Below, one piece after another: positions 23,170 through 24,370 of a stretch of 64,000 nucleotides of DNA. Within the stretch, counting starts at the first letter, position 1. Each line of letters starts with the position of its first letter. Under the pieces are notes generated by a model that worked only from the letters and a program-made list of their open reading frames with translations, ran no database searches and was not told the DNA's origin. Both the position numbers and the translations under genes were made by a program. The stretch is from Arthrobacter sp. CAN_C5 (GTDB lineage: Bacteria > Actinomycetota > Actinomycetes > Actinomycetales > Micrococcaceae). The stretch lies in NCBI RefSeq assembly GCF_017875735.1, contig NZ_JAGGMZ010000001.1, positions 744,001-808,000 of the forward strand. The letters are read 5' to 3'.

Positions 23170-23210
23170 TCCCAACAGGTTCCCGTCTCAGCCTTTCGCT
23201 GGTGTGCACG

Positions 23211-23328
23211 TCTCCCCAGGTTCTCCGCCGCAAGGTTCCCTTAGACGGCGTGTTGCCCGTCGCCACGGGGTTGAATGCCCAGCACCCGGGGAAACCTGCA
23301 CGGCTTCCGCCCGGCTTTACCTCCACAG
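23211..23328. repeat. 118-bp flanking element, left copy
   Basis: It begins TCTCCCCAGGTTC and ends with a 41-base block (23288-23328) identical to 24330-24370. The distance between the two conserved ends is 77 bases in both copies, though the middle has diverged. It lies 88 bases before the DUF559 gene. Confidence 0.75.
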
Positions 23329-23416
23329 GCCTATCCCGCGGCCGTTTGTCGCTGCGCCTGCCCACATAGGGCCGCACCGAAGACCGGAACGGGCCAGGAT
23401 CGGCTGCACTGGCCAG

Positions 23417-24241
23417 ATGGATGCCATCACCACCCTCAGGGGTCTGGGGTCGGTCGCCCGCTGCTGCGAGGTGTTGAAACGAGGTCCGACCCGCCGCCAG
23501 ATTGATCGCCACGTGGCACGCGGTGAGATACTCCGACTCCGTACGGGGGTGATTTCACTGCCCGACGCGCGTCCCGACTATGTGGCCGCCGTCCTCAACA
23601 ACGGTCGCCTGACTTGTGTTTCAGCAGCCGCGACGTACGACCTGTGGACGGTAACGCCAGCAAACTCCCTGCATCTGAGTTGCCTGCATGGGCATGGCGC
23701 CGGCTACACCAACCATCGGGAACGCACCGTCCCTCCCCATCCGCGGTTGCCGCTGGTGGGACTGGTGGATGTGCTGGTCCACGCGCTGAGATGTCTTCCG
23801 CCACTTGAAGCCGCCGTCATGGTCGAGTGTGCGCTCCGTCGGGGTGACACGATTCGTAGCTTTCTGCTGGATCGGTTACCCGGGGAACGGAATGCCCCCG
23901 CCCGCGCGGCGGTGGGTCTGGTGACGTGCGCCGCCGAGTCTCCCTTGGAGGTGGTGGCACGGGTCCTGTTCATCAACGCAGGATTCCACGTTGAGACTCA
24001 GGTGCCACTGGCCGGCGTCGGGAGGGTTGACTTCCTGCTTGAGGGCTTTCTGGTGGTCGAGGTGGATGGTGCCGCCTTTCACTCCGACCGGCGTGCCCTC
24101 CGTCGGGATCTCCGGCGAAACAATGGGGCCATTGTCGGCGGGTACCTGGTGCTGCGCTACAGCTATGAGGACATCATGTTCCATCCAGAGGAAGTGCTCC
24201 GGGAGATCCGACAGGTCCTTTCCGGCCGCGTCATCCGCTGA
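23417..24241 (+). CDS. DUF559/Vsr-like nuclease-domain protein with AbiEi-like N-terminus
   Basis: 274 residues from ATG 23417. The N-terminal part resembles the winged-helix and transcriptional-regulator region of AbiEi-like proteins (TRRQIDRHVARGEILRLRTG, then LTCVSAAATYDLW). The C-terminal 100 residues look like a very-short-patch-repair-type endonuclease domain: SPLEVVARVLF, GVGRVDFLL, LVVEVDGAAFH and RRDLRRNN. The acidic residues of SPLE, RVDF and VEVDG would form a PD-(D/E)XK site. Such genes are common and lineage-specific in actinobacteria; their role is unknown. It is enclosed by two matching 118-bp elements, suggesting transfer or amplification as a unit. Confidence 0.7.
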   Translation: MDAITTLRGLGSVARCCEVLKRGPTRRQIDRHVARGEILRLRTGVISLPDARPDYVAAVLNNGRLTCVSAAATYDLWTVTPANSLHLSCLHGHGAGYTNHRERTVPPHPRLPLVGLVDVLVHALRCLPPLEAAVMVECALRRGDTIRSFLLDRLPGERNAPARAAVGLVTCAAESPLEVVARVLFINAGFHVETQVPLAGVGRVDFLLEGFLVVEVDGAAFHSDRRALRRDLRRNNGAIVGGYLVLRYSYEDIMFHPEEVLREIRQVLSGRVIR

Positions 24242-24252
24242 CCGGGTGCAAC

Positions 24253-24370
24253 TCTCCCCAGGTTCCACGCCCCAACTCCCACGTCATCGGGGTGGCGCGC
24301 GCCGACACGCGGTGTGACGCCCACAACCTGGGGAAACCTGCACGGCTTCCGCCCGGCTTTACCTCCACAG
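24253..24370. repeat. 118-bp flanking element, right copy
   Basis: Same ends and same 77-base internal spacing as the left copy. Here CCCCAGGTT (24256-24264) and AACCTGGGG (24325-24333) are perfect complements, so the element can fold on itself. It ends 39 bases from the HIT gene. Confidence 0.75.

Follow-up and report, generated by a model that had tools for sequence, protein, structure and literature searches.

A DUF559 nuclease gene of Arthrobacter enclosed by twin palindromes with dispersed copies, a candidate REPtron-like system with an unrelated enzyme

Introduction

Why does a gene for a putative nuclease lie between two copies of the same repeat in an actinobacterial chromosome, and how are enzyme and repeat related? 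The question is raised by a locus of Arthrobacter sp. CAN_C5, located in a stretch of 64,000 nucleotides (contig NZ_JAGGMZ010000001.1; hereafter the window), in which a DUF559-type gene is enclosed by two similar elements. An initial annotation, made from the sequence alone, considered two roles for these elements: the borders of a cassette swapped by recombination, or the nuclease's own site.

A comparable arrangement is known for the REP palindromes and the RAYT enzymes tied to them. According to one report (PMC8266576), a REPtron comprises a single-copy nuclease gene beside palindromes whose cognate copies are dispersed, with co-evolution of enzyme and palindrome and a gene that is rarely mobile, the spreading mode of REPs being still open; the same report describes the palindromic ends of IS200/IS605. 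REPs have also been counted for Arthrobacter livingstonensis in a table row of another report (PMC12306157), the main text of which mentions neither DUF559 nor RAYT. No paper tying DUF559 to palindromes was found in a literature search outside which lay most subscription journals and bioRxiv.

In this work, the window genome (G000), whose nearest named matches are Arthrobacter sp. 260 (86%) and Arthrobacter sp. H20 (81%), was compared within a collection of 57 genomes, 35 of which, including G000, were placed in one genus (hereafter the genus). By analogy with the RAYT/REP system, our results indicate that the nuclease probably has its own dispersed DNA repeat, in a REPtron-like relationship that involves an unrelated enzyme.

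Twin palindromes flank the gene in the window

The two elements had been reported to share a 13-base start, an identical 41-base block and a distance of 77 bases, a description with which both coordinates and shuffles agree. The 13-mer TCTCCCCAGGTTC is found at 23211 and 24253, the 41-bp blocks at 23288-23328 and 24330-24370 are identical, and the start-to-start distance from 13-mer to block is 77 in both copies. A chance repeat was ruled out as the source of the 41-mer, which matched twice in the window and never in 100 dinucleotide shuffles. The full repeat is longer than first noted, spanning 23204-23328 and 24246-24370 with 97 of 125 positions identical. Within it, the palindrome proper measures 98 bp (5' element, 23204..23301; 3' element, 24246..24343, in direct orientation relative to the 5' copy; both + strand), and the outer arms of both copies read GTGCA..TCTCCCC and GGGGAAACCTGCAC. 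In the 5' element the left arm GTGCACGTCTCCCC occupies 23204-23217 and the right arm 23288-23301; in the 3' element the arms lie at 24246-24264 and 24325-24343, and the perfect complementarity described for this copy was confirmed (CCCCAGGTT/AACCTGGGG). At the apex, each element carries a degenerate core (23248..23268 and 24290..24310, + strand) with 2 mismatches to the consensus GCGTGTCG-N5-CGACACGC. A known RNA family was rejected, as Rfam gave one match of 15.8 bits against a cut-off of 60.

The middles of the twins, first described as diverged and free, are indeed diverged, with 38 of 64 positions identical; this is twice the shuffled mean of 18.7, and they are therefore diverged copies rather than free sequence. 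The notion that selection acts on the ends, as opposed to a recent simple duplication, is likewise supported for the constraint on the ends and probably fails for the last 27 bases of the 41-bp block, which fall outside the palindrome (23302..23328, identical to 24344..24370, + strand). This tail was not seen at the solo copies of the host genome or beside the 3' copy of its closest relative, so its identity looks like the product of a recent local copy event rather than of selection.

The gene encodes a predicted AbiEi-Vsr nuclease

Profiles, fold and alignment predict that the 274-aa protein (23417..24241, + strand) combines an N-terminal AbiEi-like DNA-binding region with a C-terminal DUF559/Vsr-like nuclease domain. 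In Pfam the protein matched DUF559 (31.2 bits, cut-off 20.6) and MTES_1575 and no other families, and an NCBIfam search gave no match; the DUF559 profile was matched by all 31 family members. Its N-terminus (residues 11-82) matched the PADLOC AbiEi profile with an E-value of 3.1e-6, and AbiEi_4 was detected in 21/31 members, the window protein itself being without this match. An AlphaFold2 model built from 31 orthologues (mean pLDDT 91, pTM 0.85) was compared by Foldseek, in which the AbiEi antitoxin 6y8q matched with prob 1.00, and the C-terminal part matched the homing endonuclease I-Bth0305I (3r3p), 3hrl and Vsr (1cw0), each with prob 1.00; E-values for these folds ranged from 1.6e-3 to 4.9e-2, none reaching 0.001. 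A profile search with the nuclease part gave 1.1e-4 for 3hrl and 0.02 for 3r3p. Residues D205, E215, D217 and H222 are invariant in 31/31 aligned orthologues, and the first three lie opposite D, E, D of 3hrl and opposite A, E, N of 3r3p. Furthermore, dN/dS values against the two nearest relatives (0.071/0.595 and 0.125/1.160, i.e., 0.11-0.12) show that the gene is under purifying selection.

The host genome harbors a second DUF559 gene, 31% identical (L031, G000:C1:1033495-1034286), which is preceded by another, different palindrome (TCAGTGGGA..TCTAGACAGTCCCACTGA) and followed by 18 bases that repeat the end of that palindrome.

An additional motif was recognized upstream of the gene in relatives. 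The exact pattern TTRTNCACA, which has the form of a DnaA box of actinobacteria, was found upstream of 48/78 named orthologues (L178-L257), on the coding strand only, as compared with 4/3098 other windows and 0/936 gene windows. This DnaA-box-like motif, also given as TTGTCCACA, precedes the start codon by about 60 nt in relatives, and 63 of the 75 occurrences of TTGTCCACAT at up to 2 mismatches begin 59-61 nt before the match start. Comparison with relatives identifies CTGCCCACAT (23358..23367, + strand) as its degenerate counterpart in the window.

Elements with a shared core accompany orthologous genes

A search of relatives had been proposed as the way to evaluate the locus. Palindromes are present at all 17 listed orthologue loci, in most cases clearly on either side of the gene; they have a common apical core (GCGTGTCG-N5-CGACACGC) and arms that differ. 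The core hairpin was detected in 24/35 genus genomes and 27/57 overall, and the reversed-pattern control in 1/57, outside the genus. The strict core, counted by hand, was present in 22 of the 27 genus genomes with an orthologue of at least 49% identity (one partial and one interrupted copy included) vs 1 of the 7 without; the five orthologue genomes devoid of it have a degenerate core beside the gene. One genome, G027, has only a broken DUF559 gene of this clade (L151, G027:C25:975700-977400) and still five core elements, as expected if these are relics.

Core-bearing elements were then counted at 34 close gene loci, accepting up to 3 core mismatches in flanking rows and up to 1 in solos, so that the flank count is laxer than the solo count; 6/126 rows (in-gene or chance cores) were dropped from the flank counts and the solo matching described below. 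By the lenient cut, both sides were occupied at 28 loci, one side at 2 and neither at 4, three of these four having arms and no core; by the strict cut the numbers were 15, 10 and 9. Of the 50 flanks at 25 loci, 47 satisfied the lenient rule; with the reversed core none did, and after shuffling of the flanks in 2-mers 2.1 did on average. At 30/34 close DUF559 loci an element was present on at least one side. Of 80 named loci, two were cut by contig ends and dropped; only 39 of the remaining 78 scored above the 95th percentile of mismatched 5'/3' pairs, and strong inverted repeats were present on both sides in 24.

Cognate copies are dispersed in the host genome

The same element occurs away from the gene. 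G000 contains 11 elements, i.e., the two gene-flanking copies and nine solos near 487.5, 522.0, 544.8, 601, 732, 1486, 1613, 2734 and 3647 kb. Overlap with coding regions was checked at nine sites (eight solos, the one at 487k left out, plus a match at 1910k later judged chance), seven of which had none; the solos at 732k and 1613k overlap frames with starts probably called too long. Eight one-mismatch matches (L081, L083, L084, L086-L090), among them positions 2864-2876 of the window, were unlike the elements and were rejected. A repeat occurring without nuclease genes, one of the outcomes foreseen as unfavorable by the initial annotation, is therefore present in the form of the nine solos, but an ordinary intergenic repeat it is not, as 30 of 34 close DUF559 loci carry the element.

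Counting those beside the gene, the 13-mer GCAGGTTTCCCCA has 10 copies in G000 and 11 copies in G008; it has one copy in each of 4 genomes and none in the other 51/57, its reversed control giving a total of 2 matches across the 57 genomes; the end motif was near background in 55/57. For another arm, GGGGCACTTTG pairs were found in 9/10 genomes chosen for that arm vs 3/12 chosen for other arms, and in 7/10 after removal of four that flank the query gene by coordinates. The raw count of GGCKTCGTGCACG did not discriminate, as unrelated genomes, among them G040, G041, G047 and G038, have 11-16 matches. Arm spacing, for which pairs were chosen by eye from match listings, is nearly fixed at 80-82, 56-58 and 74; among the matches listed, it was 80-82 for the G000/G008 arms (5 pairs), 81-82 for a second Arthrobacter-type arm (7 pairs), and 56-58 for the arm of Pseudarthrobacter and related species (23 pairs). 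For the 58 elements whose arms matched well, the median length was 99.5 bp.

Solos, fetched by the core and, in some cases in G000 and G008, by the arm, were located relative to genes for 51 copies: 11 lie between convergent genes, 11 in tandem arrangement and 0 between divergent genes, with 29 unclear; hence many solos are at gene ends. This placement bears on an alternative in which an AbiEi-like protein regulates its own gene by binding to the palindromes, the solos being its regulon. The N-terminal AbiEi matches are compatible with such a regulator, AbiEi proteins are described as binding to their own promoters at 23-bp inverted repeats (PMC7319586), and in 21/30 measured cases the distance from the 5' core to the start codon is 134-182 nt. 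However, there is also an element downstream of the gene (its core 56-76 nt past the stop in 18/29 measured cases), and a repressor could do without a nuclease domain whose acidic residues are invariant. The 3' element and the solo placement weaken this explanation, which we consider unlikely; were it right, the find would be a smaller one, namely a nuclease-bearing autoregulator with dispersed sites.

Tandem element arrays with a period of about 118-135 bp were also observed (L157, G006:C1:93970-94466; L147, G027:C20:89488-89749; L054).

Arms follow the protein clade

Each protein clade has different arms, and the arms of a solo tend to be like those beside the gene of its own genome. Flank similarity correlated with protein identity (Mantel p = 0.001), with a mean flank score of 72.7 at protein identity of at least 75% and of 28-31 in every lower bin, a correlation that is in part not independent because whole flank windows were compared and same-site orthologues share DNA by descent. 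Paralogues within one genome provide cleaner evidence: five genomes contributed several close copies to the alignment (G017, G021, G022, G033 and G034; the broken second copy of G024 left out), and the flank score between copies of one genome was 18-36. Solos are cleaner evidence as well, both being also open to relatedness among genomes. For 53 solos with a gene in their own genome, the own flanking arms ranked first in 19 and third or better in 36, with a median rank of 2 among 27 genomes, and the mean solo vs own-gene score was 32.9 vs 21.7 with genome labels permuted (p = 5e-5; largest of 20,000 permuted means, 28.2), statistics that are inflated by the relatedness of the genomes. Six of the 53 solos, with own ranks of 11-25, were mismatched to their own gene. 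With flanks following the protein clade and solos tending to match own-gene arms, these sequence comparisons favor the earlier suggestion that the element may be the nuclease's own site.

They also bear on the idea that the elements are either terminators, i.e., ordinary hairpins between genes, or MITEs that belong to an unrelated transposon. Folding agrees with a hairpin for the 3' copy, whose stability reached z-scores of -3.8 (+ strand) and -3.7 (- strand), and the 5' copy reached only -0.8 and -2.5. Flanks that follow the clade of the adjacent nuclease, solos that tend to match that nuclease and the usual occupation of both sides of the gene all argue against it, as does the lack in the genus of Y1_Tnp, the only transposase family searched; it is the least probable of the readings considered here.

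Movement, gain and loss of elements

Comparison among species revealed differences in element content. The element at 1486039 is present in G000 and not recognizable in G008 or H20, the one at 544787 is present in G000 and G008 and absent from H20 (neither site with a clean junction), and the one at 2734086 is present in all three. Target-site duplication was assessed in 32 solos including tandem copies, giving 4.47 vs 3.82 with 0/300 permutations reaching the value, a signal that faded without the tandem copies (25 solos, 4.12 vs 3.83, p 0.05, offsets inconsistent). Y1_Tnp (PF01797, HUH Y1 transposase) was found in 2/57 genomes, in 0/35 of the genus and not in G054, a genome of another family of the order; a RAYT or IS200 as the mover in the genus was therefore rejected.

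As for the gene itself, the window copy lies between a polyprenyl synthetase and a HIT gene, as determined by tblastn and Pfam, the means by which all gene sites were assigned. In the gene tree it groups with genes at a Pyr_redox/BFD site (96/94 support), whereas 11/12 other genes at the polyprenyl synthetase/HIT site form a separate clade (90/88 support). As the window gene groups with a clade from another chromosomal site, there has been at least one change, either of the gene or of what occupies the site. Across species of the genus, at least two distinct DUF559 clades occupy the polyprenyl synthetase/HIT intergenic site.

The cassette proposal would explain the solos much as solo LTRs arise, through recombination between direct copies that removes the gene and one element. 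Twins are in fact mostly direct (21 direct, 3 inverted and 1 tie among the 25 of the 78 named loci scoring at least 40), but 59 solos stand against 34 gene loci in our table and flanks are unlike in the five multi-copy genomes, so that we regard a cassette as a very improbable source of the solos.

Homing or conversion is a further alternative, in which the nuclease makes breaks at element sites whose repair converts the copies toward a single arm sequence; the solos would then be old, alike by conversion and rarely spread. In its favor, a homing endonuclease is among the closest nuclease folds, the 27-base tail was copied between the twin elements, and at 2734086 the element aligns in three species but the intergenic DNA to its right does not. 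Presence and absence between species need gain or loss, however, which conversion alone does not provide, and tandem copies occur; we judge this alternative to be quite unlikely, more so than the regulatory one.

Proposed mechanism and comparison with known systems

Returning to the reading of a nuclease with its own dispersed repeat, we infer binding, cleavage and spread in trans by the nuclease. The AbiEi-type half would recognize the ~15-20-base arms of a ~100-bp palindrome as two half-sites at a nearly fixed distance, which fits the binding of inverted repeats described in PMC7319586. Nicking or cutting by the Vsr/I-Bth0305I-like half would take place in the element or close to it, and through repair or transposition the element would be copied or converted in trans at intergenic sites elsewhere; the gene, placed between two copies that are mostly direct, would itself be rarely mobile.

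By analogy, the AbiEi-Vsr system appears to work like a REPtron, sharing with REP/RAYT (TnpA-REP) systems the single nuclease gene flanked by palindromes, the cognate intergenic copies, the co-evolution and the rare mobility of the gene. It is not a REPtron member, since its enzyme is AbiEi plus Vsr-like whereas RAYTs are HUH enzymes, and its palindromes are longer (~100 bp vs 20-50 nt) and fewer (11 copies in G000 vs hundreds); no GTAG-type tag was noticed at the elements upon inspection by eye. The EDxHD (Vsr-like) homing endonuclease I-Bth0305I resembles it in the modeled fold of the catalytic domain but is a mobile intron protein according to its PDB entry, whereas the present protein has an additional AbiEi half and its gene lies between palindromes. 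AbiEi antitoxins (type IV toxin-antitoxin) are similar in the N-terminal fold and in inverted-repeat DNA as the likely ligand, and differ in that a nuclease domain is added here and the adjacent genes scanned, encoding the polyprenyl synthetase and the HIT protein, include no toxin. IS200/IS605 elements, for which the REPtron report cited above describes palindromic ends, share that feature and differ by their Y1 transposase, which was not found in the 35 genus genomes or in G054.

A broader claim is that these nucleases constitute a second, independently evolved REPtron class, in which AbiEi-Vsr nucleases recognize fixed-length palindromes specific to their clade and spread them in trans in the genomes of actinobacteria, and in which the DnaA-box-like motif would tie their activity to chromosome replication; we put this forward tentatively, as a possibility that falls somewhat short of probable. 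If true, the association of a nuclease with a dispersed palindrome would evolve repeatedly, a second, unrelated enzyme family bearing the same genomic signature; DUF559 proteins of this kind would acquire a function, and a natural series of clade-specific nuclease/site pairs would be available for work on specificity. Each protein is predicted to be specific for its own arms and to leave alone those of a coexisting paralogue, in genomes such as G034, G021 and G033.

A similar arrangement outside the genus

Among 20 DUF559 loci inspected outside the genus, one, in G054, has the same core. Its DUF559 gene has elements on both sides, with arms GGATCAGGAA/TTCCTGATCC. Eight elements with the arms of this gene were found in the genome, all of exactly 75 nt although the pattern allowed 60-85, one of them beside the twin-flanked DUF559 gene itself; the case is independent of those in the genus; the pattern matched 1/57 genomes, and its control 0.

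Three of the G054 elements (1436242, 2341812 and 2568855) have the two halves of the inner 10-mer inverted repeat swapped and somewhat altered (CGACACGCCG..CGGCGTGTCG), and are still 75 nt in total. Long perfect or near-perfect inverted repeats were also observed next to DUF559 genes that are more distant and belong to other families of the order (L301, L305 and L306).
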